Assembly (NCBI GenBank): GCA_012026795.1
Contig: VEPM01000036.1
Span: 1 to 44,421 of the forward strand
Length of the DNA stretch: 44,421 nt
Reading direction: 5' to 3'
DNA from: Candidatus Methanoperedens sp.
GTDB lineage: Archaea > Halobacteriota > Methanosarcinia > Methanosarcinales > Methanoperedenaceae
Positions within the stretch are counted from its first letter, which is position 1. Each line of letters starts with the position of its first letter. Under the pieces are notes generated by a model, which was given only the letters and a program-made list of their open reading frames with translations, was not told the DNA's origin and searched no databases. The translations under genes were made by a program, and so were the position numbers. Shown one piece after another: positions 13,027-32,403 of the stretch.

Positions 13027-13096
13027 TTGCCTGAATCTTTCTTTTTTCAGAATAAACACGACAACACTTGCTGATTTATCTACATCCATATACTAT
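13027..13096 (+). promoter_or_regulatory. Bipartite operator plus TATA box, site 3 of 10
   Basis: TTGCC at 13027 and TTGCTGATTT at 13068, 41 nt apart; the TATA-like CATATACTAT is at 13087-13096, about 27 nt before the ATG at 13116. The CGACAACACTTGCTGA segment is shared with sites at 20912 and 23754. Confidence 0.75.
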
Positions 13097-13115
13097 CCTT
13101 CCCTTTCATGGCTTA

Positions 13116-14273
13116 ATGAATAAATATCAGGTAAACGGAAGGAAGCTTGGCGCACTGGAAATTAAAGCAGAGCTATTAGTGGACGGCGTAAACATAGACG
13201 CTTCTGCCCTTCCTGGCGTGGGAGAAAAATATAAGGAGCAGATACACGGTGTCTTTGACTTTGACCTTGAATCGCATGAGCACCAGAAACTTCCCGCCGA
13301 GATCATATTCGAGGATAAGATGCTCGTACCATTCAAAAAGAACAGCGCTTCGCCTTTTATTGTAAAAATGAACAACGGCTCGCTCTTTCTTGAGTACAAT
13401 GGAAAATATGTTCTTGATGTGAAATACAACAGGAGACCTGGATTCTATGATAAAAAGACCTCTGATGAGATTCTCATGTCCCGGATCGGGCAGAACGTAT
13501 CAAAAGATGCGCTTATCGTAGCGTACAGTAACTATTGCAATTATTATAGAACAAATGAAGAGTGCTGGTTCTGCAATCTTGTGCATACAAAGAAAACATA
13601 TAACGGCGATGTAATCGGTTTGAAAACACCTGCACATATCGGAGAAACTTTCCAGGCAGCTCTCGAAGAAGACGCTGTAGATAAGCTTCTCCTGACAGGC
13701 GGAATGCATCCGAACGGAAAGGAACATGAATATTATATTGAGGTTGCAAAAGAGGTAAAAGAGCGTACAGGAGATGACCATGTGCCAGGTACTGTGGTCA
13801 TATCGGCTCCCACTGACCTTAAGAAGATCGAAAACTTAAAAAAAGCAGGTTTTGATTCGGTTGCATTTAACCTCGAAGTATGGGACAGGAACCTTTTCGC
13901 AGGCATCTGCCCTGGAAAAGCAAGAGCTATCGGCTGGGATAATTATCGCAAAGCCCTGGAATATGCAGGCAGGATATTCGGGCATGGAAAAGTCCGGTCT
14001 ATGTTCGTCTCAGGTCTTGAGTCGAAAGAATCATTCCTGAAAGGTGCAGAATATCTTGCATCAAAGAATGTACTTGCTTTCCCCATGCCATGGACACCTA
14101 ACCCGGGTTCAAAGCTGGAAGGGCACAGGACACCTCAACCTTCATGGCATCTTGACCTGAGCAGGAAGCTTGTTGATATCTGGCAGAAATACGGTTATAC
14201 TGAAGATCATTTGAAAGAGCTTCCCCTGTCGCGGAATTATCTGTATTTTGATGAGATGGCTGGAAGAACATGA
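13116..14273 (+). CDS. Radical SAM protein with spaced Cys motif (CX8CX2C)
   Basis: About 385 aa. The cluster motif YSNYCNYYRTNEECWFC puts cysteines at about residues 141, 150 and 153, a CX8CX2C spacing rather than the usual CX3CX2C. The following sequence (LLLTGGMHPNG, SVAFNLEVWD, VRSMFVSGLES) fits a radical SAM barrel. I start at ATG 13116 because the TATA box lies about 27 nt upstream (leaderless); an upstream TTG would fall inside the operator. The stop overlaps the ABC ATPase start (ATGA). Substrate unknown; linkage to the sulfonate-type transporter suggests it acts on the imported compound or a cofactor for it. Confidence 0.8.
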   Translation: MNKYQVNGRKLGALEIKAELLVDGVNIDASALPGVGEKYKEQIHGVFDFDLESHEHQKLPAEIIFEDKMLVPFKKNSASPFIVKMNNGSLFLEYNGKYVLDVKYNRRPGFYDKKTSDEILMSRIGQNVSKDALIVAYSNYCNYYRTNEECWFCNLVHTKKTYNGDVIGLKTPAHIGETFQAALEEDAVDKLLLTGGMHPNGKEHEYYIEVAKEVKERTGDDHVPGTVVISAPTDLKKIENLKKAGFDSVAFNLEVWDRNLFAGICPGKARAIGWDNYRKALEYAGRIFGHGKVRSMFVSGLESKESFLKGAEYLASKNVLAFPMPWTPNPGSKLEGHRTPQPSWHLDLSRKLVDIWQKYGYTEDHLKELPLSRNYLYFDEMAGRT

Positions 14274-15055
14274 TAAAAGTGAAGGTAGAGAACATAACGA
14301 AGGTCTTCCAAAGCAAAAACGGAAAGAACGGCTGTGTGGAAGCACTTGGTGGAATAAACCTTGAGGTCAGGACAGGTGAATTCCTCGCCATCGTTGGACC
14401 GAGCGGCTGCGGGAAATCAACATTCCTTGAGATCCTGGGCGGCCTGATAAAGCCATCATGCGGAAACATCTACATAGACGGAAAAGCGGTAAACGGCCCG
14501 GATCATGACAGGGGGATTGTATTCCAGGGTTATGCGCTGTTCCCATGGCGAACCGTAACAGAAAACATATCGTATGGGCTTGAAGAAAAAGGTATCCCCG
14601 GGAAAACAAGATATGAGATATGCAAAAGATACATTTCTCTTGTGGGTCTTTCTGGCTTTGAGGATCATTATCCATATCAACTCAGCGGCGGGATGAAGCA
14701 GCGCGTGGCGATAGCAAGAGCTTTTGCTTATGATCCTGCTATTTTATTAATGGATGAACCCTTCGCAGCTCTTGATGCACAGACAAGAGATACGCTGCAG
14801 GGTGAGGTTTTGCGCATCTGGGAGGAAACAAAAAAAACTGTGTTATTTGTCACCCATAACATTGAAGAAGCTGTATTTCTGGCTGACAGGGTAGCTATCA
14901 TGTCAGCACGCCCTGGTAAAATTAAACGGATGATCAACATTCCACTGCCCAGGCCAAGGTCTGGGGATTCCAGGACATCCGGGGATTTTATTGAACTGAG
15001 AAAGGAGGTGGGCAACATTGTCAGGGAAGAAGCCAGGCCTGAAGCGTTCTCTTAG
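14270..15055 (+). CDS. Nitrate/sulfonate/taurine-type ABC transporter, ATP-binding subunit
   Basis: 261 aa, SsuB/TauB family. Walker A GPSGCGKST near residue 42, Q-loop FQGYALFPWRTV near 85, signature LSGGMKQRVAIARA near 140, Walker B ILLMDEPFAALDAQTRD near 160 and the H-loop VTHNIEEAVFLADR. It energises uptake together with the permease and binding protein that follow. It overlaps the radical SAM gene by 4 nt. This is the only ATPase of this family in the window and may also serve the second permease at 27145. Confidence 0.92.
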   Translation: MIKVKVENITKVFQSKNGKNGCVEALGGINLEVRTGEFLAIVGPSGCGKSTFLEILGGLIKPSCGNIYIDGKAVNGPDHDRGIVFQGYALFPWRTVTENISYGLEEKGIPGKTRYEICKRYISLVGLSGFEDHYPYQLSGGMKQRVAIARAFAYDPAILLMDEPFAALDAQTRDTLQGEVLRIWEETKKTVLFVTHNIEEAVFLADRVAIMSARPGKIKRMINIPLPRPRSGDSRTSGDFIELRKEVGNIVREEARPEAFS

Positions 15056-15797
15056 GAAAGTCATCGCCCTGCTTGTTTTTTTCCTTTTATGGGAACTGCT
15101 GCCTGCAAGCGGCATAATCAGCAAAGCATACTTTGCACCGCCATCAGAAGTTTTTGCAGCACTTGTGAGGCTTACAGTATCAGGTGAACTGTGGACCCAT
15201 ACAAGCATCAGCCTCCAGCGTGCTATTACAGGACTGGGTCTTGCTACGATAATAATGATACCACTTGGTTTTTTCATGGGATGGTACAGAGACTTTGAAG
15301 AAATCGCGGATGGTCTGGTGCAGACGCTAAGGCAGACTTCGTCCTTATCCCTTTTTCCGGTATTCATCCTTTTTCTGGGGATAGGGGAAGTATCAAAAAT
15401 CGCTGTAATATTCTGGGGTGCACAGTGGCCGATATTACTGAACACCATCAACGGTGTGAAAAGTGTTGATCCCCTGCTGATAAAATCCGCCCGTTCAATG
15501 GGTTCGTCCTCAATTTCATTATTCAGGAAAGTTGTCATACCTTCATCCCTGCCATCAATAATCACCGGTTTGAGGCTCAGCGCAACTCATTCTGTAATCG
15601 TTCTTGTGGCAGCCGAGATGATCGGGGCTAAATCGGGATTGGGGTATTCAGTGATCAACTGGGAATATAATTTCATGATACCTGAAATGTATGCAGCGAT
15701 CGTTATGCTTGCGCTTCTTGGATTGATCACTAATTATTCTCTTGTCTGGCTTGAGAAAACTACTACGAAATGGAAGGAAGAAATATCGATAACATAA
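15018..15797 (+). CDS. Nitrate/sulfonate/taurine-type ABC transporter, permease
   Basis: 259-aa SsuC/TauC-like permease with about six membrane segments and the EAA-type loop VDPLLIKSARSMGSSSISLFRKVVIP. The start is TTG at 15018, 8 nt after an AAAGGAGGTG ribosome site, and lies inside the ATPase gene (38-nt overlap). Substrate specificity cannot be read from the permease. Confidence 0.9.
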   Translation: MSGKKPGLKRSLRKVIALLVFFLLWELLPASGIISKAYFAPPSEVFAALVRLTVSGELWTHTSISLQRAITGLGLATIIMIPLGFFMGWYRDFEEIADGLVQTLRQTSSLSLFPVFILFLGIGEVSKIAVIFWGAQWPILLNTINGVKSVDPLLIKSARSMGSSSISLFRKVVIPSSLPSIITGLRLSATHSVIVLVAAEMIGAKSGLGYSVINWEYNFMIPEMYAAIVMLALLGLITNYSLVWLEKTTTKWKEEISIT

Positions 15798-15809
15798 GGA
15801 GAAATTAAA

Positions 15810-16865
15810 ATGAATACAAATATAAAAACTGCGACAATCCTGATTGGCATTGCTTTAATATTGACGGCTGGCCTTTTATGGATCAAGGAAACAACGGCTG
15901 AACCTAAACAGGAAACAAAAACCACGCAAGTAAGCGATACCGGATCACAGAAAGATATTACGATACGATACCTGTCTTCCAGTACAATTATTGAACCTTA
16001 TGAATTTGCAAAAGAACTTGGATATCTTGAGGGCATAAATCTCATCCGTGAGGGCTCATATACCGGCGGTCCCGAAGATATACTGGCAGTTGCTTCAGGC
16101 AGCACAGATATAGGTCATTCTGCATGGGTTGCAATAATAAACGCCAGAACCAGGGGGAGTGAAATTACGGCGTTTGCAGCTCCTATGGGCAATTCGCCAG
16201 AAAGCTGGTATAAGGGAACCCCTTTCTTATCAAAATGGATCGTACTTGAGAACAGCAGTATAAAGAATGCAAAAGATCTTGCCGGAAAGAAGATCGCTGT
16301 AAATATACCGGGTGCGCATGTTGATTATGTTACACGTGAATATCTCGCTCGAAACGGAATATCCACGGACCAGGTACAGTTTGTAACAATTGGCATTTCA
16401 AAACATGAGCAGGTGCTCAAACAGGGTCAGGTGGATGTTGTCGCCCCGCTCGGTGTAGTTGTGGACAAGATAGAAGAAGGGAAAGGTGTAAGAGTGCTGT
16501 TCTCGGATTACGATATTATTGGAGACCAGACACACTGCGTGCTTTTCACGTCAGAGAAGTTCCTGAAGGAGAAGCCAGATGCTGTAAGGCGCCTTACAGA
16601 GGGTATAGCAAAGGCAGCCGACTGGGCAAAAGAACATCCAGAAGAATCACAGGAACTGGCTGTCAGGATACTCAAAGATAAAGGCGGGAATCCTGACCTT
16701 GCAAAATACTGGAAGGGCTTCGGAGTAAGAGACCACGCGCTCCTTGCGGATAGCGATGCGCAGTTCTGGATAGACTGGCTGGTAAAGGACGGGAAGATCA
16801 AAGAAGGGCAGTTCAAACCTGCTGATATATACACCAACGAATACAATCTATATTATAAGAAATAA
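15810..16865 (+). CDS. Sulfonate/nitrate/taurine-type ABC transporter, substrate-binding protein
   Basis: 351 aa. N-terminal hydrophobic anchor (about residues 6-27) without a clear lipobox, then a Thr/Lys-rich linker and a SsuA/TauA (NMT1-like) domain: IRYLSSSTIIEPYEFAKELG, GGPEDILAVASGSTDIG, NAKDLAGKKIAVNIPG. It binds ligand on the outer face and hands it to the permease. It ends the operon, followed by a strong hairpin terminator. Confidence 0.9.
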   Translation: MNTNIKTATILIGIALILTAGLLWIKETTAEPKQETKTTQVSDTGSQKDITIRYLSSSTIIEPYEFAKELGYLEGINLIREGSYTGGPEDILAVASGSTDIGHSAWVAIINARTRGSEITAFAAPMGNSPESWYKGTPFLSKWIVLENSSIKNAKDLAGKKIAVNIPGAHVDYVTREYLARNGISTDQVQFVTIGISKHEQVLKQGQVDVVAPLGVVVDKIEEGKGVRVLFSDYDIIGDQTHCVLFTSEKFLKEKPDAVRRLTEGIAKAADWAKEHPEESQELAVRILKDKGGNPDLAKYWKGFGVRDHALLADSDAQFWIDWLVKDGKIKEGQFKPADIYTNEYNLYYKK

Positions 16866-17701: not shown

Positions 17702-19027
<1,326 letters not shown>

Positions 19028-19044: not shown

Positions 19045-20232
19045 ATGAGCCAGGTTGCCGCAGCTGGGGATACAGAGATCAGGCATACAGGAACACATAC
19101 CAGAGGCATACATTCCGGAGAAATAGGAATAGTAGATACACAATACTATAACTTCGCTGCCCGGGATGCACTGGTACTTGAGTCTGGAGAGAGACTTGGG
19201 CCTGTTACTCTTGCTTATGAGACATACGGGAAGCTCAATACCCGGAAGACCAATGCGATCCTTATTCTTCATGCGCTCTCCGGCGATGCTCATGCTGCGG
19301 GATTTCATAGAGGAGCGGATAAACCCGGATGGTGGGATACTATGATAGGACCGGGCAAGGCATTTGATACTGATAAATACTTTATAATATGCTCAAATGT
19401 ACTCGGAGGCTGCATGGGTTCGACAGGCCCATCATCTATCGACCCCGGGACGAAAAGGCCATATGCGCTTGATTTTCCCGTAATCACAATAAAAGATATG
19501 GTAAATGCCCAGCGGCATCTGATCGACTATCTTGGTATCGGAAAACTCTTGAGTGTTGTGGGCGGCTCGATGGGCGGAATGCAAGCCTTACAATGGGCGG
19601 CATCTTTTCCGCATCGGGTGAAATCCGTGATCCCTATTGCCACGACCCTGAAACATTCCCCGCAGCAGATCGCATTCGGCGAGGTGGGAAGACAGGCGAT
19701 AATAGCTGATCCTGACTGGAAGGGAGGAAATTACTATGGAGGAAAAATCCCGGCAAAAGGGCTTGCTATTGCACGTATGGTGGGTCATATCACTTACATG
19801 AGCGATACCTCCATGGGTGAGAAGTTCGGAAGGCGTTTTAAAAATGGGAAAAAGTTATCAAAATTTGGCGCTGATTTTGAAGTGGAAGGATATCTCCATC
19901 ATCATGGCGATATTTTTGTAAAGAGATTCGATGCCAACTCGTACCTTTATATTACCAAAGCCCTGGATTATTTTGATCTTTCTAATGGGAAAACTTTATT
20001 AGAAGTTTTTAATGGTATTACTGCGAAATTCCTGATAATGGCATTTAAGTCAGACTGGCTTTATCCGGTTTACCAGTCAAATGAAATCCTCAAGGTTTGC
20101 AAACTGGCAGGAGTCGAGGCTACGTATTGTGAGATAAATTCTACTTACGGTCATGATGCTTTTCTGCTTGAAGTGGATGAAGAGACGCACCTGATCAGGC
20201 ATTTTCTGAAAAATGTCCACGGATACGAATAG
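19045..20232 (+). CDS. metX: Homoserine O-acetyltransferase
   Basis: 395 aa alpha/beta-hydrolase-fold acyltransferase that acetylates homoserine for MetY. The nucleophile elbow GGSMGGMQ puts the catalytic serine at about 175, with the aspartate near 337 (FKSDWLYP) and the histidine near 370 (YGHDAF). The N-terminal [14 protein letters not shown] and [12 protein letters not shown] fit MetX. Acetyl versus succinyl preference cannot be decided with certainty from sequence. It lies between metY and metW. Confidence 0.93.
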
Positions 20233-20235
20233 CGG

Positions 20236-20844
20236 ATGAACATGGCTGGATATGGTAATGATTCTCTTAAACTGGATTATAGTATCATCATGGATATGGT
20301 GAGACCGGGCTCATCGGTGCTGGATCTTGGCTGCCATAAAGGTGAGCTGCTCTCTATCCTGATAAGGGAAAATGATGTCAGGGCTCATGGGATCGAAATA
20401 GATGAGAAAGCAATATATGAATGTGTTGCCCTGGGGATCGGGGTTTCACACCAGGATATAGATAACGGGCTTTCGGAATACGGCGACCGGTCATTCGATT
20501 ATGTCATTATGAACCAGAGTCTCCAGCAGGTGAAAAAACCGGATATGGTTTTAAAGGAAGCATTAAGAGTAGGGAAGGAAGTCATTATCGGTTTTCCCAA
20601 CTTCGCACATTATAAGGCGCGCTTTCAGGTATTTTTCAAAGGGCAGACACCAGTTACCCAATCGCTTCCCTACGAATGGTATGAAACTCCAAATCTTCAT
20701 TTCATGAGTATATCGGATTTCAGGAATTATTGCAGAAAGAGGAATATAAAAATAAAAAGCTCAGCTTTTATTATGGAGAACAGGATGATAAATATGTTTC
20801 CAAATTTTTTTGCCCGGACAGGGATATTCCTGATATCCAGATGA
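20236..20844 (+). CDS. metW: Methionine biosynthesis protein MetW (methyltransferase fold)
   Basis: 202 aa. MRPG..VLDLGCHKGELLSIL is the SAM-binding loop; HGIEIDEKAI and FDYVIMNQSLQQVKKPDMVL follow as in MetW, which pairs with MetX in many genomes and is needed for full homoserine acylation. It starts 3 nt after metX. An alternative start at 20242 is possible. Confidence 0.9.
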   Translation: MNMAGYGNDSLKLDYSIIMDMVRPGSSVLDLGCHKGELLSILIRENDVRAHGIEIDEKAIYECVALGIGVSHQDIDNGLSEYGDRSFDYVIMNQSLQQVKKPDMVLKEALRVGKEVIIGFPNFAHYKARFQVFFKGQTPVTQSLPYEWYETPNLHFMSISDFRNYCRKRNIKIKSSAFIMENRMINMFPNFFARTGIFLISR

Positions 20845-20957: not shown

Positions 20958-22169
20958 ATGGAATTTTTTGAGCGAAATGAGCTTCTCATCAATTTTATGC
21001 TTGTGAACATCAGCTCAGGGATTGCTGTTGGAATGATGAATTTTATCATTCCCATATATGCACTCAGTCTCAATGCAACCTCTATTGAAATCGGCCTGAT
21101 AAAAGGATTTACAGGGATAGGGGATTTGCTGATAGTTCTACCTGCCGGATTTCTTATAGATTATTTTGGCTCAAGAAAGATGTATTCTGTAAGTTGTATA
21201 TTCGGATCTTTGATAATAATTTCCATTTCATTTGCAACCAATGCCAGTTTTCTCCTGTTAATAATGTTGTTCTACGGGATAGCGAAAACTATCAGGACAA
21301 CCTCAAACAATGCTGATTTTTTTAAACATATGAACACTATCGGAGTCAGTAAAGCCGGCTTTTTTAAGGGCTCAATAACCATAGGATCGGCGTTAATCGG
21401 TCCGTTAATCGGGGGAATAGCGATTTTAGCCATGGGTTATACAAGTTATTTTGTATTAACGAGCGCATTCCTGCTTTTACCGCTTATTATAATATCCTCC
21501 CGCTTATACCGCGAAAATACCTCTCCGGTAAAACCAAAGATTATTAGCTTCATTGATACTTCAAACCATTATAAGTCTCTTACGAAGAATAAGCTCCTCG
21601 TTAGCGCAACTATAAAAAATGGTTTGAATTCCGCATTTTTCATGACCTTTACAACCTTTATAATCGTGCTGGCGATCAAAGACCTGGGTCTATCCCCTGG
21701 CATAGCTGCGGCGCTTATCTCTATAAAAGGGGTATCCACATTGTTTGTTGTATTCTTCGGGGGGACATACCTCCAGAAAAACAATAATGGTTTATATTTA
21801 TTTGCTTACCTTACAACTATCTTTTCGCTCCTTCTTTTAGGGATTGGGACTGATTCTATCGCGCTGGGTATAGCCTCTCTGGTAAATGGCGTAGGCACCG
21901 GTCTTATAACCCTGATCAATTTTACAGAGGTTGGAAATATTGATGGGGAGAAAGGTAAGATAGCGGGGTTTTTTTCTTTTGGCAACGCCCTGGGTTCGAT
22001 CACAGGACCTACACTTGCCGGAATGATAGGGGATGCCCTGGGTGTACAGGCGATATTCCTTGCATTTATAGTGCCATTTGGCATGCTGGCGATCTATACT
22101 TTCTTAGACAGAAGAAAAAATAGAATTGAATCGGAAAATACTGCCGCAACTATGCAGATTATGGAATAA
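20958..22169 (+). CDS. MFS transporter, paralogue 1
   Basis: 403 aa with about twelve membrane segments. The MFS motif A appears as GFLIDYFGSRKMYSV between helices 2 and 3. Start is directly downstream of the TATA box (leaderless). It is clearly paralogous to the protein at 23801 (shared MMNFIIPIYALSLNATSxEIGLIKG and GEKGKIAGxFS stretches). Each copy is followed by a gene of the 2-hydroxyacyl-CoA dehydratase/activase group. Substrate unknown; import or export of a compound handled by those enzymes is inference. Confidence 0.9.
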   Translation: MEFFERNELLINFMLVNISSGIAVGMMNFIIPIYALSLNATSIEIGLIKGFTGIGDLLIVLPAGFLIDYFGSRKMYSVSCIFGSLIIISISFATNASFLLLIMLFYGIAKTIRTTSNNADFFKHMNTIGVSKAGFFKGSITIGSALIGPLIGGIAILAMGYTSYFVLTSAFLLLPLIIISSRLYRENTSPVKPKIISFIDTSNHYKSLTKNKLLVSATIKNGLNSAFFMTFTTFIIVLAIKDLGLSPGIAAALISIKGVSTLFVVFFGGTYLQKNNNGLYLFAYLTTIFSLLLLGIGTDSIALGIASLVNGVGTGLITLINFTEVGNIDGEKGKIAGFFSFGNALGSITGPTLAGMIGDALGVQAIFLAFIVPFGMLAIYTFLDRRKNRIESENTAATMQIME

Positions 22170-22290: not shown

Positions 22291-23688
22291 ATGAGCGAAT
22301 CAAAAACACAATTCAGGTACCCTGAAGAAATAGGGCCGGCATTCAAAGAGACCGATGGTTTGAGATTTAGTGACGGGGGGCAGGTTTCTGCTGCAGAAAT
22401 ATGGGACTTCATGACAAAGGAAGCGCCTGTGAGATTTCCCAACGCTTTTGATACAAATATTTATTTCAGGGGCATCTCAACTGATGCAAATTTATTCAGC
22501 GGCATCAAGCGCAATTACCTTAATCTGACCCTAAAGGATAGATTGATGGAGTCACACAAAAAAGGCATTCCCGCAGTATTCATACAGGGCGGGCAGACCG
22601 TTGAACCCTACTATGCAGCAGGCAGCATACCGGTCAGGCCAGGAGTCGTGAATGGATGGGCCCGTAACATTGTTGAAGGGCTGAACACGAGACAATCCAA
22701 CCAGAGGGGCATGTCCATCTTAGAAGGAGGAAGAAGAGCCCTGACAGTTGATTCCTGCGGCCAGATAGCGGCTCATGCAGCACTTGAGGAAAATTTAGTA
22801 CCCATTGATCTTGTTGCTCCCTATCTTTGCCTTCGCTGCTCAGACATGGCATACCTTGTCGAATCCCATCGTCACGGAAAAACAACCGTTCCGCTCCATC
22901 TTGTGGATTTTCCGGTTGGGCAGCAGGGTGAATGGAGAAAAGAGTACCTTATAACAGAATTGGAAACCCTGATAACAAAAATTAACAAAATTTCTAATAA
23001 AAAGCTCACTGATGAAGAATTAAGAGATGAATTAAAACAAGAGATAAAACGTGAAAACCATGCCCGGCAGCTTCTGCGTGAATCTTATGAACTGAGATGG
23101 TCAGCAAAAGTTCCGCCTACGAACAGCGTAGATCACAGCAGTACCGTATCTATTGGTATAGACGGCTGCGGTGATTTCTCGGCAGCAACTGATGTTTTGG
23201 AAGAAACGCGCGATGAGACAAAAGACAGGGTCAAACACGGCGTTAAAGGCACCGGCCTGGCTGATGACCCGGTAAGGCTTTGGGTATGCGGATCCTGTGT
23301 CGGACCAAATGCCGTACGGGTTGACAGGGCAGGCGGTGTTATTATTGGCAAGGATGACTGGTGGAGCGAAGCTGTCACAGATGTAAAAGAAACAGGTGAT
23401 CCCTATGAGAACCTGGCAGAAGCAATTTTATCGTTCCCGTATGAACTACCCACCGAAGAAAGGGCTGAATGGACTGCCCGGCAGGTAAAAAAATCAAGAG
23501 CAGATGGAGCTATTTTCTATTTTGCATGGGGATGCAACTATCAGTCCGGCGTAGCCAGGATGATCGCTGATATCATAAAAGAAAGAACAGGTGTCCCGAC
23601 TATCAATATTGAAGCCGAGATTACATCAGCAGAAGGTCTCGAGCAACCTCATAACAGGATCGAATCTTTCATTGAAATGTTAAGCTGA
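22291..23688 (+). CDS. 2-hydroxyacyl-CoA dehydratase family protein with six conserved Cys
   Basis: 465 aa, HgdB/BcrB-like fold family. Cysteines at 156 (DSCG), 180 and 183 (CLRC), 333 and 336 (CGSC) and 415 (WGC) are all kept in the paralogue at 28060; a seventh, C293, is not. Classical HgdB/BcrC subunits use three Cys for one 4Fe-4S cluster, whereas double-cubane cluster proteins use six, so a larger cluster is plausible here. Such proteins receive electrons from an ATP-dependent activase like the one at 25083. CoA-dependence and substrate are unknown; a reductase for a small molecule is inference. It has its own promoter (site 6). Confidence 0.8.
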   Translation: MSESKTQFRYPEEIGPAFKETDGLRFSDGGQVSAAEIWDFMTKEAPVRFPNAFDTNIYFRGISTDANLFSGIKRNYLNLTLKDRLMESHKKGIPAVFIQGGQTVEPYYAAGSIPVRPGVVNGWARNIVEGLNTRQSNQRGMSILEGGRRALTVDSCGQIAAHAALEENLVPIDLVAPYLCLRCSDMAYLVESHRHGKTTVPLHLVDFPVGQQGEWRKEYLITELETLITKINKISNKKLTDEELRDELKQEIKRENHARQLLRESYELRWSAKVPPTNSVDHSSTVSIGIDGCGDFSAATDVLEETRDETKDRVKHGVKGTGLADDPVRLWVCGSCVGPNAVRVDRAGGVIIGKDDWWSEAVTDVKETGDPYENLAEAILSFPYELPTEERAEWTARQVKKSRADGAIFYFAWGCNYQSGVARMIADIIKERTGVPTINIEAEITSAEGLEQPHNRIESFIEMLS

Positions 23689-23712
23689 AGGGTCTTAACA
23701 TATTGATTTTTC

Positions 23713-23780
23713 TTGCCTCTAATGTTCGCCTTTCAGAATAAATACGACAACACTTGCTGAATTAATTACTGCTATATATC
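23713..23780 (+). promoter_or_regulatory. Bipartite operator plus TATA box, site 7 of 10
   Basis: TTGCC at 23713 and TTGCTGAATT at 23754, 41 nt apart; TATATATC at 23773, 28 nt before the ATG at 23801. Leaderless arrangement, as at site 5. Confidence 0.75.
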
Positions 23781-23800
23781 TTCTCTTTAGACTCTGGACT

Positions 23801-24970
23801 ATGAAGATTTCCGGTGCTAATGGTCTTATCCTTAAATTCATGCTCATAAATATCAGTACCGGGATCGCGATGGGTATGATGAATTTGATCTTACCGATAT
23901 ACGCTCTCAGCCTGAACGCAACATCAACCCAGATCGGCCTGATTAAAGGCATCTCAGGACTTGGAGATTTGCTGATCGTACTGCCTGCTGGATTCCTGGT
24001 GGATTATCTTGGCTCGAAAAAAATGTACTCTGTAAGCGCTGTCCTGGGAGCTTTAATAATCATGTCGCTCTCCTTTGCTACCAATATTATACTTCTCCTG
24101 CTTGTGATGTTGTTCTTCGGGATGGCCAGGACTTTAAGGACCACTGCTCTTAGCGCTGATTTTTTCAAGAACATGAACACTATTGGGGCAAAAAGAGGAG
24201 GATGGTTCAAAGGCTCGATGAACATGGGAGGATCGTTCATTGGTCCTGTGATCGGAGGGATAGCTGCAATAGCTCTTGGTTTTACGAGCTATTTCGCACT
24301 CACAAGTGCATTTTTACTTGCGCCATTCATAGTGATCCTTGCTCGTACAAACCATAATAGCAAATCCCAGTTCAAACCAAAGAATCCAAGTTTCACAGAT
24401 GCCTCAAATCATTACAGGTCACTTGTAAAAAACAGGGCTTTAGTATCTGCCACCATTATAGAAAGCCTGAACAGTGCAATATTTGTAACTTTTACCACAT
24501 TCATTACTGTCCTGGTGATCAAGGACCTGGGTCTTTCTCCTGAAATTGCAGCTATGTTAATATCATTGAAAGGTGGAGCTACGATCCTTGTTGTTTTTTT
24601 CTGCGGTCATTTACTTTGCAGGAATAACAATCACCTGTACCTGATAAGCTTTATTGTAACTATTCTTGCATTGGTGCTATTGGGGACGAGTAAAGATACC
24701 ACCATGCTGGCAATAGCTTCTGTGGTCCTTGGCATAGGCGGGGGTATGATAACTCTTATCACTTTTACCCAGGTCGGGAATATTGAAGGAGAAAAAGGTA
24801 AGATAGCAGGGGTCTTTTCGTGTGGCCTGGGTATTGCCTCTATTTTCGGACCAACGCTTGGAGGAATGATCGGGGATATTTTCAATGTCCAGGCAATTTT
24901 CCTGTCATTTGTACCGCTTTTCGGTGCGCTTTCATTCTATACTTTTTTGGAAAACAGGAAACAGAATTGA
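23801..24970 (+). CDS. MFS transporter, paralogue 2
   Basis: 389 aa, about twelve membrane segments, motif A as GFLVDYLGSKKMYSV. Paralogue of the MFS protein at 20958, with the same leaderless start and the same operator, so gene and promoter were duplicated together. The activase operon follows 112 nt later behind its own copy of the operator. Confidence 0.9.
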   Translation: MKISGANGLILKFMLINISTGIAMGMMNLILPIYALSLNATSTQIGLIKGISGLGDLLIVLPAGFLVDYLGSKKMYSVSAVLGALIIMSLSFATNIILLLLVMLFFGMARTLRTTALSADFFKNMNTIGAKRGGWFKGSMNMGGSFIGPVIGGIAAIALGFTSYFALTSAFLLAPFIVILARTNHNSKSQFKPKNPSFTDASNHYRSLVKNRALVSATIIESLNSAIFVTFTTFITVLVIKDLGLSPEIAAMLISLKGGATILVVFFCGHLLCRNNNHLYLISFIVTILALVLLGTSKDTTMLAIASVVLGIGGGMITLITFTQVGNIEGEKGKIAGVFSCGLGIASIFGPTLGGMIGDIFNVQAIFLSFVPLFGALSFYTFLENRKQN

Positions 24971-24981
24971 ACCGGAAATTA

Positions 24982-25049
24982 TTGCCGTAACTATACAGAA
25001 TCCGGAAGAAATTAGGCGACAGTTGCTGGTTTCTAAAGAGTATTATAAG
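24982..25049 (+). promoter_or_regulatory. Bipartite operator plus TATA box, site 8 of 10
   Basis: TTGCC at 24982 and TTGCTGGTTTCTA at 25023, 41 nt apart; TATTATAAG at 25041. It drives the activase operon at 25083, which has an AGGAGG ribosome site at 25072-25077. Confidence 0.75.
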
Positions 25050-25082
25050 AACAGGGAATAGAGTGGTTATCAGGAGGATAAT

Positions 25083-25889
25083 ATGACAACAAAATCAGAT
25101 AATATACCAAAATTTGCTGGAGTAGATGTGGGATCGCTGACAACCAAATCCGTGATCATATCAAATGGCTCGATAGCTGGCTATAGCCTGATCCCGACAG
25201 GAATAGATACTGAAGAGAATGGGCGGCTCGCACTCAAAAAAGCGCTTGAGTCGGCAAACCTGAAACGTGAAGACCTGAAATATATCGTCGCTACAGGTTA
25301 TGGGAGGATCTCAGCGCCATACGCAGACAAGACTGTGACCGAAATAACATGCCATGCAAGAGGCGCGCATTACCTGCATCCCACCACAAGAACAATTATC
25401 GATATGGGTGGACAGGACTGCAAAGCGATACGCCTGGATAAGGATGGGAATGTCGTGGATTTTGCCATGAACGATAAATGCGCCGCAGGTACGGGACGAT
25501 TCCTTGAAGTGATGGCCAACGTGTTCAAGGTCAAATTAAACGATCTTGGTCCCCTGGCGCTAAAGGCAAAAGAAATCGTGCCCATGAGCAGCACATGCAC
25601 TGTCTTTGCTGAATCGGAAACTGTTTCCCTCCTGGCCAGGGGAGAAAAACCGGAGAACATTCTCAAAGGGATACACCATGCCATTGCCAACAGGGTATCA
25701 GGCATGTTCTCGCGCGTGGGCGTGGAAAGTGATGTCTTCTTCTCAGGAGGGGTTGCAAAAAATACAGGAATGAAATCCGCACTTGAGGAGGTGCTGAAAG
25801 CCAAAATAGTGGCGCCTGAGTATGATCCCCAGTTAGTGGGAGCGCTTGGGGCCGCAGTGCTTGCAAGAAACTACAGTGGAAAGGTATGA
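25083..25889 (+). CDS. ATP-dependent activase (BadF/BadG/BcrA/HgdC family)
   Basis: 268 aa, ASKHA-fold ATPase ('archerase'). GVDVGSLTTKSVI binds ATP phosphate; C133 (NDKCAAGTGRF) and C172 (SSTCTVFAESE) are the two cysteines that hold the inter-subunit 4Fe-4S cluster of the homodimer; the C-terminal GGVAKNTGMKSALE and LVGALGAAVLAR motifs are standard. It uses ATP to send low-potential electrons to a dehydratase or reductase partner, here most likely the proteins at 25886, 28060 and 22291. The stop is 4 nt into the next gene. Length is normal for HgdC-type activases. Confidence 0.93.
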   Translation: MTTKSDNIPKFAGVDVGSLTTKSVIISNGSIAGYSLIPTGIDTEENGRLALKKALESANLKREDLKYIVATGYGRISAPYADKTVTEITCHARGAHYLHPTTRTIIDMGGQDCKAIRLDKDGNVVDFAMNDKCAAGTGRFLEVMANVFKVKLNDLGPLALKAKEIVPMSSTCTVFAESETVSLLARGEKPENILKGIHHAIANRVSGMFSRVGVESDVFFSGGVAKNTGMKSALEEVLKAKIVAPEYDPQLVGALGAAVLARNYSGKV

Positions 25890-27079
25890 AAATGGTATTA
25901 GGAAGTTTGGAAAAAATAAACCAGGCTGTAAAGGACAGGCCGCAGGAGCTTGTAAAAGCAAGAGAAAAAGGAGCAAAAGTCGCAGGCTGGTTCAATTACA
26001 ATATCCCTGAAGAGATCATCCATGCCCTTGGATTGATCCCGGTAAGGCTTGGAGCAGGAGGAGATGACAGGCTTGTCGAAATCGGCGGCAGATATATTTC
26101 AACAAAAAATTGCGTTTATACAAGAGAACTTGTGGGACTTTTTGCCCGGAATCAGGATCCATATATCATAAATTCGGATATAGTCGCAGTAGATGCGACC
26201 TGCCTGCAAACATACCGTGTGGCAGAGGTTATAAAGCATTATTTTAAGGTGAACACACTGATACTCGGAGTACCAAAGCATTTCTCTGAGCCTGAAGGGC
26301 AGGAATATTTCAGGAAAGAACTGGAATCGTTCACACAGAAACTGGAAGAATTTTCCGGAAATAAACTTGATGAGAATAAGCTCTCAGAATCCATCAAACT
26401 CTACAATGACATAAGAAAATCCCTGAAACAATTATACAAATACCAGGCAATAGGACACCAGCCCATAAAATGGCGCGAGGTTTTCGATGTGGTACATGCG
26501 GGATTCTACCTTGACAGGGAAAATTACCTTTCATTGTTGAAGGAACTGCTAACTGAACTGAAAGAAAAACATGGTGAACCGGTAATCGGGAAGCTGAATG
26601 GAGATGCCCGTATCCTGGTATCAGGAAGCATAATTCCACCAGGAGATACAAAATTGATCAATATTATAGAGCAGGTTGGGGGAAGAATAGTGGGTGATGA
26701 CCTGTGGTCAGGTCTTAATCCTTCACTTGATATAAATATCAGGGAAGCATCCATAAAAGGGATCGCAGATGCGTATATCAACCGTGTTCCGCATGCTGCG
26801 CTTCCTTTTCTGGACCTGGAAACAGACAGGAGGCTCAAAAACCTGAAGCGCCTTGTCAGGGACCACAGGGCACAGGGGGTATTATATCACACATTGCGCT
26901 ACTGCGACGCATTCTCCTTCAAAGCCGCGGAAACAAAGAACGTACTGAAAGCAGAAGGTGTGCCGCTGCTTGAGATACACACAGAGTATGCAGGCTCTGA
27001 CGTTGAAGCAATAAGAACCAGGGCCGAGGCTTTTGTCGAGCTGATAAGAAATAAGAATATTCTTGAGAGTGAGGCTTGA
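25886..27079 (+). CDS. 2-hydroxyacyl-CoA dehydratase subunit-like protein with three Cys
   Basis: 397 aa, HgdB/BcrB/BcrC-like. It has only three cysteines, C76 (NCVYTRE), C106 (ATCLQTYR) and C340 (RYCDAFSFKA), the classical set for one 4Fe-4S cluster. Motifs VAGWFNYNIPEEIIHALGLIPVRL and SGSIIPPGD fit the family. It overlaps the activase gene by 4 nt, which marks it as a direct electron acceptor of that activase. As a single such subunit it could form a homodimer or pair with a 6-Cys paralogue. The reaction is not predictable. Confidence 0.88.
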   Translation: MKMVLGSLEKINQAVKDRPQELVKAREKGAKVAGWFNYNIPEEIIHALGLIPVRLGAGGDDRLVEIGGRYISTKNCVYTRELVGLFARNQDPYIINSDIVAVDATCLQTYRVAEVIKHYFKVNTLILGVPKHFSEPEGQEYFRKELESFTQKLEEFSGNKLDENKLSESIKLYNDIRKSLKQLYKYQAIGHQPIKWREVFDVVHAGFYLDRENYLSLLKELLTELKEKHGEPVIGKLNGDARILVSGSIIPPGDTKLINIIEQVGGRIVGDDLWSGLNPSLDINIREASIKGIADAYINRVPHAALPFLDLETDRRLKNLKRLVRDHRAQGVLYHTLRYCDAFSFKAAETKNVLKAEGVPLLEIHTEYAGSDVEAIRTRAEAFVELIRNKNILESEA

Positions 27080-27144
27080 ACCTGTGGTTTGCCCTCAATG
27101 TAAGCAAAATATGAACTGTATGATCAAAAAACCAGGAGTTAATT

Positions 27145-28005
27145 ATGTCAGGAGAAATATTCAGTAATAAGGAAGAATTTAAGGAACTAACTATCGAAAC
27201 CAGTCGTCTGGAAAAGAGATTAAATAATCTGAAAGAAAGAGTGATAGGACGGTCGCATGGCCTGGTACTTATTTTTTTGTTTTTTATAGCATGGGAGATA
27301 TTACCCAGAAGCGGAGTAGTCAGTTCCATATTCGTCCCTCCATTTTCCGATACGATCCTGGCCATGAAAAATTTAGCTCTGTCCGGAGAATTGTTTTTCC
27401 ATCTCAAAGCAAGTATGGAAAGATCCCTGATAGGATTCATGTTAGCGGCTATTGTTGCGATTCCGCTGGGATTCGTTATGGGATGGTACACGCGTTTTGA
27501 GAAATATACGGATTTGTTCATGCAGACTTTAAGAAATACATCGCAATTTGCCCTGCTTCCGTTATTTATTCTACTGCTCGGGATTGGCGAAGTATCAAAA
27601 ATCGCAATGGTATTTTATGCCGCAGTCTGGTTCATGCTGATTAACACAATAAGCGGAGTAAAAAATGTAGATCCTCTCTATATAAAGGCTGCCAAATCGT
27701 TCGGGATATCGAATTATCATTTGTTCAAGAAAATCATACTTCCGGGATCTTTTCCTTCTATAATTGCCGGCGCAAGGCTATCTGCAAAATCTGCTGTGAT
27801 GGTAGTGATAGCCGCCGAGATGCTGGCTGCTAAATCAGGATTAGGATATTTTATCCAGGATTCCCAGTTAATGTTTCGCATCCCGGACATGTATGCAGGA
27901 ATATTAACACTTTCAATAATTGGTGTTTCAATGAATTATATTCTTATCTGGATCGAAAAGAGGGCAACATACTGGAAAGGGGATATTGATTCTGCAATAT
28001 CGTAA
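27145..28005 (+). CDS. Nitrate/sulfonate/taurine-type ABC permease, second copy
   Basis: 286 aa, SsuC/TauC-like, with about six membrane segments and the EAA loop VDPLYIKAAKSFGISNYHLFKKIILP. It is a paralogue of the permease at 15018, with about 25 extra N-terminal residues (SRLEKRLNNLKERV, possibly coiled coil). No ATPase gene accompanies it, so it may borrow the ATPase at 14270. An AGGAG ribosome site precedes the ATG. Confidence 0.88.
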   Translation: MSGEIFSNKEEFKELTIETSRLEKRLNNLKERVIGRSHGLVLIFLFFIAWEILPRSGVVSSIFVPPFSDTILAMKNLALSGELFFHLKASMERSLIGFMLAAIVAIPLGFVMGWYTRFEKYTDLFMQTLRNTSQFALLPLFILLLGIGEVSKIAMVFYAAVWFMLINTISGVKNVDPLYIKAAKSFGISNYHLFKKIILPGSFPSIIAGARLSAKSAVMVVIAAEMLAAKSGLGYFIQDSQLMFRIPDMYAGILTLSIIGVSMNYILIWIEKRATYWKGDIDSAIS

Positions 28006-28059
28006 CAATAAAAAATTTTCAGAGTGATGTAGAAAATAAAAATAAACTGGTATAAAAAT

Positions 28060-29463
28060 ATGAATGAAATAAATAATAAAGATAAAATATTTGCATATCC
28101 TGATGAAATAAAAGAGCGATTTAGTGAAACAAAAGGACTGGATTTCAGGGATGGAACCCATGTTTCAGCAACAGAGATCTGGGATTTTATGACAATTGAG
28201 GCTCCGAGAAGATTTCCTCATGCGTTCAGTATGAGCAGATTCCATAATAGCCAGCTGTCAAAGGATGTGGAGTTCTTCAGCGGGATCAAAAGGGGATATC
28301 TTTCCCTTACGCTGCGGGACCGTCTTTTGAAAGCACATAATGAGGGTACGCCTATCATACATGTGCAGGGAGGACAAACAGTTGATCCTTATTTTGCTGC
28401 GGGAGGGATACCCATCGTACCCGGACCGCTCAGGGGCTGGGCAAGGGATATGCAGGAAGGGTTGAGTTTAAGGGAAGCCGGCAACAGGGTGATGAAAATC
28501 CTTGAAGGCGGGAGAAAAGCGGTTTCTATCGATGCCTGCAACAATCCGATAGCTGCTATAGAAGCAATTCACCAGGAAATAGTGCCTGTTGACCTGATCG
28601 CGCCATACCTGTGCCTGCGCTGCTCTGATATAGGATATGCTATCGAATCTTACAGAAGCGGTAAACGCAAAGTCCCTGTGTATCTCCTGGATTACCCGAT
28701 AAGCCAGGATAAAGACTGGACTGTAAAATATCTTGCAGCAAGAATTCATGGATTGATAAAAAAGATCGGGGAAATAAAAGGCAGCGAAGCAAGCGAAGAA
28801 GACCTGAAAAAAGAGATTAAGCTTGAGAATAAGGGACGGCGGTTATCGCGCGAAACTGTTGAACTTTCATGGTCAGCTTCCACTCCTCCAATGAACAGTA
28901 CAGAGACTTCGAGTACTATCACTCTTGGAAGGTTTGACCGCGGCGATTCTCTTGTAGCAACACAGGTGCTGGAGGAAGCGAATCATGAGGTCAAAGAAAG
29001 AATAAAACATTCAGTAAAAGCAGATGGAGTAGCTGATGATCCTGTCAGGATATTTTCATGCGGTTCCTGTTTTGGTCTTCGCGGTGATTTTCTTGAAGAT
29101 AAAGGCGGTATACATGTAGGAACAGATGACCACTTAAGCAAAATCTATGCTGATGTTGAGGAGACCGGAGATCCTTATGAGAATCTGGCCAAAAGCGTGC
29201 TTTCATATCATTACGAACAGCCTACTGAAATTCGCGCCCGGTGGGTGGTTGAACTGGTGAAACAATCAAGGGCAGATGGTGTTATTTGCGGAACTAACTG
29301 GGGATGCAGCTTCCAATCAGGGATTTCCAGGATGATCGCCGACATTGTAAAAGAAGAAACCGGCGTTCCAACGATCAACCTCGAAGTTGCCGAACTGGGA
29401 CAATTAGAATCTGTAGAGCAGACCCAGAATCGTATAGAATCGTTCATTGAAATGCTCAGTTAG
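28060..29463 (+). CDS. 2-hydroxyacyl-CoA dehydratase family protein with six conserved Cys, second copy
   Basis: 467 aa, paralogue of the 22291 protein across the full length. Conserved cysteines are C160 (DACN), C185 and C188 (CLRC), C334 and C337 (CGSC) and C416 (WGC); C410 is extra. Conserved blocks include DGxxVSAxEIWDFMTxEAP and QxRIESFIEMLS. It sits between a permease and two binding proteins, so it is bound into a transport operon, unlike ordinary dehydratases, which lie with CoA-transferases. No CoA-transferase is seen in the window. Function inferred: an ATP-primed reductase acting on the transported compound. Confidence 0.82.
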   Translation: MNEINNKDKIFAYPDEIKERFSETKGLDFRDGTHVSATEIWDFMTIEAPRRFPHAFSMSRFHNSQLSKDVEFFSGIKRGYLSLTLRDRLLKAHNEGTPIIHVQGGQTVDPYFAAGGIPIVPGPLRGWARDMQEGLSLREAGNRVMKILEGGRKAVSIDACNNPIAAIEAIHQEIVPVDLIAPYLCLRCSDIGYAIESYRSGKRKVPVYLLDYPISQDKDWTVKYLAARIHGLIKKIGEIKGSEASEEDLKKEIKLENKGRRLSRETVELSWSASTPPMNSTETSSTITLGRFDRGDSLVATQVLEEANHEVKERIKHSVKADGVADDPVRIFSCGSCFGLRGDFLEDKGGIHVGTDDHLSKIYADVEETGDPYENLAKSVLSYHYEQPTEIRARWVVELVKQSRADGVICGTNWGCSFQSGISRMIADIVKEETGVPTINLEVAELGQLESVEQTQNRIESFIEMLS

Positions 29464-29472
29464 GCGAAAAAC

Positions 29473-30489
29473 ATGGTCAACAAATCATTATTAATAATTG
29501 GAATCGTGCTGATAGCAGCTGTGGCAGGAATTATCATTTCTGCGAATAATTCACAGGGAACCGGAGAGAAGACTTCTGTGATCCGTATCGGGAGCACTGC
29601 TCCAGGTCATGCCAAATACATATTATTCGAACAAAAAGGGTGGATGGTTGATGAATTTGCAAAAGATGGGATCAAAGTGGAATTTTACCCGTTCACGGGC
29701 GGGGGTTCCGAAGCCATGACCGCTTTAGCAAGCGGGAGTCTTGATTTTGCTTATACCGGCAGCAATCCCCCATTACGCACAGCATCTGCAGGCGCGGATA
29801 TTAAATTGATAGCCTTATCATCATTTAACCCTGTGACAAGTACGGCTGTAGTGGTCAGGAATGACTCGAAAATAAGAACAATCAGTGACCTGAAAGGCAG
29901 GAAGGTGGCATACCTGAAAGGTACAGTACGCCATGCAGCTATCGTGAAATCATTGAAGAAAGCAGGCTTATCCCTTTCGGACATCGAATCGTTCAATCTT
30001 AATTTCCAGGCATCAGGCCCTGCATTGATGAGAGGCGATATTGATGCCCTTGTTGAGAGTGAAACTACGGTTTACCCACTTGTTTCAACAGGAGAAGCAA
30101 GAATCATCGTAAGCGGGAAAGATAACCCGGAGTGGGCATCCCCAAGCGCCATTACTGTCCGGGGGGAGTTTGCAAAGAAACATCCGGATCTTGTTAAAAG
30201 GTTGTTAAAAGTAGATCTGGAAACAGCACGATGGTCAGATGAACACTTTGATGAGGCGGTTAAAATCTATGCTGCTGCAAGAAAAGATAAAGAGGAAGCT
30301 GTCAGGGAACAATTTCCTGCTAATACATTCTATGTGAACCCGGAACTTACAGATAAAGCGATCCGGAGTTTTAAAGACGAAGAAGAATTCATGAGAGATA
30401 ATCAGTTACTGGATGGAAAAGTGAATTGGGACTCATGGATCGATAGGAGCTTCATAGATTCGGTATTGAAAGAATCAAATAAAAAATAA
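29473..30489 (+). CDS. Sulfonate/nitrate/taurine-type substrate-binding protein, copy A
   Basis: 338 aa. N-terminal membrane anchor (about residues 5-23), then IRIGSTAPGHAKYILFEQKGWM and PFTGGGSEAMTALASGSLDFAYTG, the SsuA/TauA-type binding core. It starts 9 nt after the 28060 gene and is clearly related to the next gene (shared SFNLNFQASGPAL and DRSFIDSVLKE). Confidence 0.9.
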   Translation: MVNKSLLIIGIVLIAAVAGIIISANNSQGTGEKTSVIRIGSTAPGHAKYILFEQKGWMVDEFAKDGIKVEFYPFTGGGSEAMTALASGSLDFAYTGSNPPLRTASAGADIKLIALSSFNPVTSTAVVVRNDSKIRTISDLKGRKVAYLKGTVRHAAIVKSLKKAGLSLSDIESFNLNFQASGPALMRGDIDALVESETTVYPLVSTGEARIIVSGKDNPEWASPSAITVRGEFAKKHPDLVKRLLKVDLETARWSDEHFDEAVKIYAAARKDKEEAVREQFPANTFYVNPELTDKAIRSFKDEEEFMRDNQLLDGKVNWDSWIDRSFIDSVLKESNKK

Positions 30490-30499
30490 AATTGGGAAT

Positions 30500-31519
30500 A
30501 TGTCAAACAAAACCGTTTTAATTATTGGGATAGTATTAATTGCAGGATTTGTTGGCTTACAAGCTCTTTCAAATAATCCACAAGTTTCTGAAGAAAAGAT
30601 CTCTGTTATTCGTATTGGCAGCACTGCCCCTGGCCATCTAAAATTTATTTTATTTCAGGAAAAAGGATGGATGGATGAAGAATTTGCAAAAGATGGAATA
30701 AAAGTAGAGTACTATCCATTTACAGGAGGCGGTGCAGAAGCCTTGATGGCATTATCCAGCGGCAGTCTTGATATCAGTTATAACGGCGCGGATCCGGGTT
30801 TACGCACTGCGGCAGCAGGCGCTGATATAAAGCTAATTGGTATATCGTCTTTTGGTAATCCGGCTTCAGGAGCATCATCGATAATCGTCAGGAATGATTC
30901 AAAAATAACATCAGTCAAAGACCTAAAAGGTAAAAAAGTGGCTTATTTGAAAGGAACCATGCGTCATGCAACAATAATTAAAGCACTGGAAATAGAGGGT
31001 ATGTCGATAAATGATATCGAATCGTTCAATCTTAATTTCCAGGCATCCGGTCCTGCATTATTAAAAGGGGATATTGATGCCCTTGTTGAGGGGGAGACCA
31101 CGATATTCGAACTTGTATCAAAAGGAGCTGCAAGGACGCTCTGGAGTGGAAAAGACCACCCGGAAATTTCTTCACCTGCAAGCGGCATCAATGTCCGGGG
31201 GGATTTTGCAAGGAAGCATCCGGATATTGTTAAAAGACTCTTGAAGATCGATCTGAAAACTGCACGATGGGCTGATGAAAACCCGGATGAAACTATAAAA
31301 ATATTTTCAAAGGCCACAAAAAAAGATGAGAAAAATGTTAGAGAGGTATCTTATCCAGAAAATAAATTCTATCAAGATCCCCAAATTACGGATAAAGCAC
31401 TTCAATCTTTAAAAGATGAAGAACAATTCATGAAGGCCAATGGCTTAATAGAAGGAAAAGTTGATTTTAACTTATGGGTAGACAGAAGCTTCATAGATTC
31501 AGTATTGAAAGAAAAATAA
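30500..31519 (+). CDS. Sulfonate/nitrate/taurine-type substrate-binding protein, copy B
   Basis: 339 aa, tandem paralogue of the preceding binding protein with the same N-terminal anchor and core motifs. Differences cluster in the ligand region (YTGSNPPLRTA versus YNGADPGLRTA; NPVTSTAVV versus NPASGASSII), so the two may bind different ligands. Last gene of the operon. Confidence 0.9.
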   Translation: MSNKTVLIIGIVLIAGFVGLQALSNNPQVSEEKISVIRIGSTAPGHLKFILFQEKGWMDEEFAKDGIKVEYYPFTGGGAEALMALSSGSLDISYNGADPGLRTAAAGADIKLIGISSFGNPASGASSIIVRNDSKITSVKDLKGKKVAYLKGTMRHATIIKALEIEGMSINDIESFNLNFQASGPALLKGDIDALVEGETTIFELVSKGAARTLWSGKDHPEISSPASGINVRGDFARKHPDIVKRLLKIDLKTARWADENPDETIKIFSKATKKDEKNVREVSYPENKFYQDPQITDKALQSLKDEEQFMKANGLIEGKVDFNLWVDRSFIDSVLKEK

Positions 31520-32391: not shown

Positions 32392-32403
32392 TTTCTCACA
32401 CCC

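Follow-up and report, generated by a model that had tools for sequence, protein, structure and literature searches.

The 44,421 bp window analyzed here, which is the entire contig C36 (VEPM01000036.1) of the 3.59 Mb genome of Candidatus Methanoperedens sp. (named nearest relatives METP1, a Methanosarcinales archaeon, and Ca. Methanoperedens BLZ2), contains a solidly identified enzyme module. It comprises two long proteins of the 2-hydroxyglutaryl-CoA dehydratase (HGD-D) family with a six-cysteine pattern (LONG1 and LONG2), an HgdB-like partner (SHORT) and an HgdC-like activase (ACT), accompanied by an ATP-binding cassette (ABC) permease (PERM) and substrate-binding proteins (SBP). The module probably represents a new two-subunit branch of the 2-hydroxyacyl-CoA dehydratase/benzoyl-CoA reductase/double-cubane cluster protein (HAD/BCR/DCCP) superfamily, with a distinctive, variable cysteine set and a role in sulfur acquisition from imported compounds. 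In the reading that we tentatively favor, which is built on the genes, their family, fold and co-location and the conservation of cysteines, it is an ATP-dependent two-subunit reductase with alternative, substrate-specific LONG proteins, probably cleaving the C–S bond of imported organosulfur compounds.

Organization of the module

The genes lie on a single strand in the order MetY-MetX-MetW-MFS-LONG1-MFS-ACT-SHORT-PERM-LONG2-SBP-SBP (MFS, major facilitator superfamily), and the stretch from MetY to LONG1 is co-directional with gaps of ≤ ~120 bp. The features, including a second cluster upstream, are as follows:

13068..14273, +, radical S-adenosylmethionine (SAM) protein opening a second SsuABC-type cluster (NF045502, 407 bits; cut-off 125)
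14270..16865, +, ABC ATPase, permease and SBP of the second cluster
17729..19027, +, MetY-type O-acetylhomoserine sulfhydrylase (TIGR01326, 662 bits; cut-off 495)
19045..20232, +, MetX homoserine O-acetyltransferase (PRK00175, 512 bits; cut-off 331)
20236..20844, +, MetW (TIGR02081, 235.6 bits; cut-off 189.5)
20958..22169, +, MFS transporter (Pfam MFS_1), sharing a blast cluster with Chlorobiia loci
22291..23688, +, LONG1, HGD-D family, 465 aa, six-Cys form, probable substrate-specific subunit (Pfam HGD-D, 1.7e-45; fold)
23801..24970, +, second MFS transporter, in the blast cluster of the first
25083..25889, +, ACT, ATP-dependent activase of HgdC/BadFG type (TIGR00241), overlapping SHORT by 4 bp
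25886..27079, +, SHORT, partner subunit, 397 aa, HadC/BzdN/DCCP-like, three Cys (Pfam, 1.2e-81)
27145..28005, +, PERM, ABC permease of Sao/Ssu/Tau type (Pfam BPD_transp_1)
28060..29463, +, LONG2, HGD-D family, 467 aa, shared Cys 160/185/188/334/337/416 (Pfam, alignment)
29473..30489, +, SsuA-family SBP 1 (TIGR01728, 254 bits; cut-off 163.5)
30500..31519, +, SsuA-family SBP 2 (TIGR01728, 250.4 bits; cut-off 163.5)

Family and fold of the long proteins

Both long proteins belong to PF06050 (HGD-D; 156.5 and 159.4 bits, cut-off 28.4), and their identity of 54% agrees with the paralogy proposed in the preliminary description. The AlphaFold2 (AF2) model of the long protein (predicted local distance difference test score (pLDDT) 76, predicted template modeling score 0.80; pLDDT < 50 around C156) gave 20 PDB matches in Foldseek at E ≤ 0.001, all from the HGD-D superfamily and with DCCP as the best, and the dehydratase-like fold suggested earlier was thus borne out by matches to DCCP, HAD and BCR structures. 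Nitrogenase structures (NifD/NifK-type fold) were matched by the same model only at E ~0.5. The scores to models of characterized enzymes were far below the cut-offs: 79.2 and 77.5 bits to the DCCP model NF040772 (cut-off 350), 19–36 bits for LONG1 to the class I benzoyl-CoA reductase models TIGR02263, TIGR03190 and TIGR02260 (cut-offs 421–487), and 23–48 bits to the 2-hydroxyacyl-CoA dehydratase models NF052455 and NF052456 (cut-offs 700–750).

Cysteine residues of the long proteins and their conservation

The complete sets of Cys residues are 156, 180, 183, 293, 333, 336 and 415 in LONG1, 160, 185, 188, 334, 337, 410 and 416 in LONG2, and 76, 106 and 340 in SHORT (25886-27079). As had been described from the sequence, the alignment pairs six Cys of the two long proteins one to one, C293 of LONG1 and C410 of LONG2 have no counterpart, and SHORT, the third family member, has exactly three Cys, the classical ones. 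Since sharing of at least six of seven Cys has a chance probability of ~0.09 at 54% identity, the match of LONG1 and LONG2 alone is weak evidence.

Conservation was therefore followed in 56 homologues, namely 52 sequences from Methanoperedens relatives, Bathyarchaeota, Margulisbacteria, green sulfur bacteria and archaeal genome G238, and four from the methanogen genus g136. Only C156, C183 and C415 were universal (52/52, likewise in the four g136 sequences), so that the six cannot be called invariant, as they had been. The complete set was found in 26 of the 52 and in all four g136 sequences (30/56), the g136 LONG having 11 Cys in total. Homologues lacking several of the six, which the preliminary description had named as evidence against its proposal, do occur in a part of the set: C180 and C333 are both missing in 20 of the 52 (with V, T or G at the C180 position), and C333 and C336 in two, while four lack a single residue (C333 in two, C336 in two). 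The paralogue L010:2154-3545 from the genome of the window has G for C333. The codons in LONG1 are as follows:

22756..22758, +, C156, universal (52/52)
22828..22830, +, C180, variable (lost in 20/52)
22837..22839, +, C183, universal (52/52), probable second classical ligand
23287..23289, +, C333, first Cys of CGSC, variable (five changes on the tree)
23296..23298, +, C336, second Cys of CGSC, mostly retained (lost in 4/52)
23533..23535, +, C415, universal (52/52), third classical ligand

According to the alignments, the classical ligands are most likely C156, C183 and C415, with C180 and both Cys of CGSC as extra residues. C180 had been placed as the second classical ligand by profile alignments, and this candidate was set aside in view of its loss in 20/52 homologues, C183 never being lost. 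C183 is preferred over C180 because it is unvarying, directly precedes a helix (184-195) in the AF2 model, and lies 27 residues from C156, which is the C73-C100 spacing of BzdN. The ligands of BzdN are C36/73/100/263/293/327, and those of BzdO are C95/128/380 (PMC11971306). With the DCCP of the same genome, which has the full double-cubane pattern, as alignment control (L001:1372-2538; NF040772, 476.8 bits, cut-off 350), the distal-cubane residues C44, C278 and C307/C309 of DCCP were aligned to G100, W358 and a gap or S381 of LONG1, and none of 20 non-redundant long homologues had Cys at the three extra double-cubane ligand positions. Thus, LONG matches three of the six DCCP/BzdN ligand positions, and as judged by alignment the long proteins are not of DCCP type, because none of the three extra positions is Cys; the earlier remark that the CLRC and CGSC pairings differ from described double-cubane proteins was correct in this respect.

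The position of C180, three residues ahead of the C183 ligand, matches Thr125 of BzdO, which lies beside catalytic residues touching the Fe-bound water (PMC11971306). CGSC aligns with I237-G-S239-E240 of BzdN, whose Ser239 lines the cluster channel (PMC11971306). Convergence of the six Cys on one pocket is plausible, because C180 and CGSC map to these cluster-pocket positions.

At the level of the cluster, it is quite possible that a single [4Fe-4S] is held by C156/C183/C415, with C336 as fourth ligand or neighbor, and that C180 and C333 form a catalytic dithiol/disulfide in the manner of ferredoxin:thioredoxin reductase, an alternative compatible with a sulfur-scavenging role. The four-Cys clade, which retains C156, C183, C336 and C415 and drops C180 together with C333, and two of the three G238 LONGs, which have C180 and C333 without C336, are consistent with it, but four sequences have C180 without C333. 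It is unlikely, by comparison, that all six Cys bind one double-cubane-type [8Fe-9S] through a combination of ligands not found in DCCP or BzdN (proximal C156/C183/C415, distal C180/C333/C336). The six-Cys form is both the most frequent and the most widely distributed (26/52 plus four), C180 and C333 are jointly missing in 20/52, and C180 and CGSC map to loops of the cluster pocket; however, the known distal-cubane positions are never Cys (0/3), and several relatives retain the additional Cys incompletely (CCC[GL]CC, CCCCAC and CCCxxC, the letters giving the residues at LONG1 positions 156/180/183/333/336/415). On the tree of the 52 sequences, C180 changed twice, C333 five times and C336 twice, and both C180 changes coincide with loss of C333, one in a single clade and one on a very long branch. 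This coincidence hints at partnership of the two residues without proving it, two events being too few for a test; since it amounts in essence to a single deep event and one highly divergent sequence, it lends a double cubane no strong statistical support.

Partner subunit and activase

SHORT matches NF040772 at 217 bits and 6eno at 5e-33 in phmmer. ACT exceeds the cut-off of TIGR00241 (290.6 bits; cut-off 125.4), and the cluster Cys 133 and 172 are present in 29/29 sequences. Nearly every locus of sufficient length contains all three of ACT, SHORT and LONG, and the ends of SHORT and LONG frequently overlap by a few bases. Because SHORT and ACT accompany it nearly everywhere, LONG probably forms half of a reductase with two subunits. 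The identity between paralogues in the genome of the window is 79–81% for SHORT and 49–54% for LONG, a difference that would be predicted for LONG as the subunit determining the substrate. Within loci, LONG and SBP genes are present in several copies for each SHORT or activase, and together with these identities this suggests that LONGs are exchangeable for different substrates. On contig C30 of the same genome, which has a second cluster, the activase is present only as a 128-aa fragment (L010:10712-11098), and that cluster may rely on the activase of the window.

Only the three classical Cys were found in 16 of 18 non-redundant SHORT sequences. The other two, from G238 (L042:17121-18302) and from a divergent system of the Chlorobiia (L071:16097-17350), have Cys at all six double-cubane positions, scoring 246 and 233 bits, respectively, to NF040772 (cut-off 350), and the LONGs beside them are without some of the additional Cys (CCCCAC or CCCLAC in G238, CGCGCC in the L071 system). 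These SHORTs are possible components of new heterodimeric double-cubane enzymes. The simplest reading assigns electron relay to SHORT, as to BzdN, and catalysis to LONG. The module, if confirmed as such an enzyme, would illustrate how two paired subunits gain and lose the ligands of a second cubane.

Comparison with known systems

DCCP (6eno, 7yyl; NF040772) resembles LONG in superfamily, fold and HgdC-like ATPase partner, whereas it is a homodimer with six ligands placed elsewhere, only three of which are common to LONG, and LONG has an additional N-terminal part and reaches only 79 of 350 bits. A genuine DCCP is encoded in the same genome as the window (the alignment control mentioned above). 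To our knowledge, the physiological substrate of DCCP is still not known.

BzdNO, a class I benzoyl-CoA reductase, has two unlike HGD-D subunits and an activase, as ACT-SHORT-LONG probably does, and carries [8Fe-9S] in one subunit and a three-Cys catalytic [4Fe-4S] in the other (PMC11971306). In contrast to BzdNO, the window SHORT has no three distal double-cubane Cys and LONG has three at new positions, CoA-ester genes were not seen among the identified neighbors, and the TIGR scores are below the cut-offs. The 2-hydroxyisocaproyl-CoA dehydratase HadBC (3o3m) is also a two-subunit HGD-D enzyme with an activase, whereas the module is transporter-linked rather than CoA-linked and scores far below the cut-off.

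Transporters and sulfur metabolism genes

An SsuABC-type importer is encoded at most loci. In the window, the SBPs at 29473 and 30500 belong to the SsuA family TIGR01728 (254.0 and 250.4 bits), and PERM (27145) is below the cut-off of the aliphatic sulfonate permease model SsuC NF008470 (122.7 bits; cut-off 347). An ABC ATPase gene is absent between SHORT and PERM (27079-27145), whereas BLZ2, whose LONG2 ortholog is 96% identical, has one there (L017:8247-9083); the importer of the window may be served by an ATPase encoded in the cluster at 14270 or on contig C30. A radical SAM protein (variant_rSAM) paired with an SsuABC-type transporter, as at 13068-16865, is also present on this contig and next to LONG in Chlorobiia.

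In G238, a genome complete in one contig and hence probably from an isolate, locus L042 has ACT-SHORT-LONG-PERM-SBP and, next on this strand, ThiS-MetY-ThiF-JAMM (Prok-JAB)-sulfite reductase-TusA, mostly overlapping at their ends, and then two more LONGs; a PALP-family (cysteine-synthase-like) enzyme and a Cys/Met pyridoxal phosphate enzyme lie a few kb beyond. The set from ThiS to TusA presumably resembles the protein-thiocarboxylate route to homocysteine of Wolinella. The ThiF of this operon had no close match in 60 other genomes of its family (best identity 49%). Thus, two rare modules stand side by side in G238, since its ThiF is solitary in the family at this similarity and LONG nearly so (4/232 genomes in the order). 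In Bathyarchaeota, LONG is followed ~8 kb downstream by MetY and MetX, and in the genome of the window an assimilatory-type sulfite reductase adjoins an adenosine phosphosulfate/phosphoadenosine phosphosulfate reductase domain protein. Chlorobiia loci (L069, L071, L073 and others) contain a Porin_O_P-like outer-membrane protein, MsbA-like exporter pairs and MFS genes in the module, which suggests that a product is exported.

Proposed reaction and alternative interpretations

The path of electrons, the type of cluster, the subunit roles, the substrate and the product are proposed as follows. ACT would hydrolyze ATP and push electrons into SHORT, from which they would pass to LONG, where C156/C183/C415 would hold the active-site [4Fe-4S] cluster in a pocket also lined by C336 and, in most relatives, by C180 and C333 as extra cluster ligands or a redox-active thiol pair. 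The substrate would enter via the SsuABC-type transporter, and a C–S bond would most likely be cleaved, in a sulfonate with release of sulfite or in another organosulfur compound; the sulfur would reach homocysteine through sulfite reductase and MetY. A sulfur role is likely in some lineages, and a sulfonate as the substrate is a proposal by analogy with the isethionate reductase IsrBHDK, a nitrogenase-like enzyme which, with SsuABC, releases sulfite from isethionate and whose genes include a radical SAM gene (PMC11423573). The ATP-dependent reductase, the SsuABC importer, the radical SAM gene and the anaerobic release of sulfur are the features common to it and the proposed enzyme, although IsrBHDK belongs to an unrelated nitrogenase-like family and the likeness is one of logic only.

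The sulfonate monooxygenase SsuD needs oxygen and is unusable for strict anaerobes. A transporter-linked BCR/HAD-type reductase, scattered over archaea and bacteria and located beside sulfite reductase and MetY in one genome, is a concrete, testable candidate for the release of sulfonate sulfur in such organisms, and if it is confirmed the superfamily would be widened beyond CoA esters. It is doubtful, though conceivable, that the module constitutes a second, nitrogenase-independent anaerobic sulfonate desulfurization system, formed by a HAD/BCR-type enzyme with its own activase and an exchangeable LONG with an iron–sulfur centre, possibly a double cubane with new ligands. No link between 2-hydroxyglutaryl-CoA dehydratase proteins and aliphatic sulfonates was found in the literature searched.

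Several observations weigh against C–S cleavage of organosulfur compounds. PERM and the ABC ATPase score best to Sao rather than Ssu models, all below the cut-off (PERM to SaoP, 157.4 bits; cut-off 295), and SsuA-type SBPs bind ligands of many kinds. In genus g136 (L098, L099, L100), ACT-SHORT-LONG lies among FecCD/Peripla_BP_2 or peptide-type transporters, with methyltransferases and MoeA also in the neighborhood, and SsuABC and sulfur genes were not seen at these loci; the substrate is uncertain because of this FecBCD-type context. Met and sulfite reductase genes were absent among the identified genes of the Chlorobiia loci, and Chlorobiia usually live with sulfide. It should be noted that the sulfur links of the window and of G238 consist of gene-neighborhood evidence only.

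The g136 loci and the best permease and ATPase matches, SaoP and SaoA, would fit a reductase acting on imported metal complexes or organometal compounds, with the nearby sulfur genes incidental, and methyltransferases occur at L042, L043 and L098. We take the Sao models to represent a "selenocysteine-assisted organometal" system. This term occurs in PMC10418091. Such a function is rather unlikely: no MerB-like or selenoprotein gene was found among the identified neighbors, although not all open reading frames were scanned, and the sulfur operon of G238 and MetYXW of the window are hard to account for by it. Reduction of thioethers (methylthio-alkanes), with methanethiol turned directly into methionine by MetY, has a precedent in nitrogenase-like methylthio-alkane reductases (PMC12552129) and would explain the adjoining MetY and MetX in the window and MetY in G238, but the sulfite reductase, TusA and sulfur-carrier genes of the G238 operon fit an inorganic sulfur product, which makes this function quite unlikely. 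That the enzyme is a conventional 2-hydroxyacyl-CoA dehydratase or class I benzoyl-CoA reductase, with which the module shares superfamily and activase, is highly improbable, since every HAD and BCR model is far below its cut-off, no CoA ligase or CoA-transferase was seen among the identified neighbors, and importer genes adjoin the enzyme.

Distribution of the long protein

The long protein is rare. It was found in 5 of 34 genomes of its own family, 2 of 393 sampled genomes of its phylum, 1 of 398 genomes in the phylum of the Bathyarchaeota match, 4 of 74 Margulisbacteria phylum genomes and 13 of 98 Chlorobiia genomes, the latter often with several copies (up to five), in addition to the order of G238 given above. 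No relatives were found among the viral contigs and plasmids searched. A LONG gene remnant of 106 aa, with N- and C-terminal pieces joined, lies between two SBP genes (L014:14261-14581).

Other genes of the window

Directly downstream of the cluster, the minus strand (32035-33267) encodes a NifX-type Nitro_FeMo-Co protein and a methanogenesis marker 8 protein. An ABC ATPase (43195-44190) that carries a TusA domain (PF01206) at its C terminus adjoins two permeases and a PBP_like_2 protein, and a type I restriction subunit of the HsdR family (TIGR00348) is encoded at 9242-11005.

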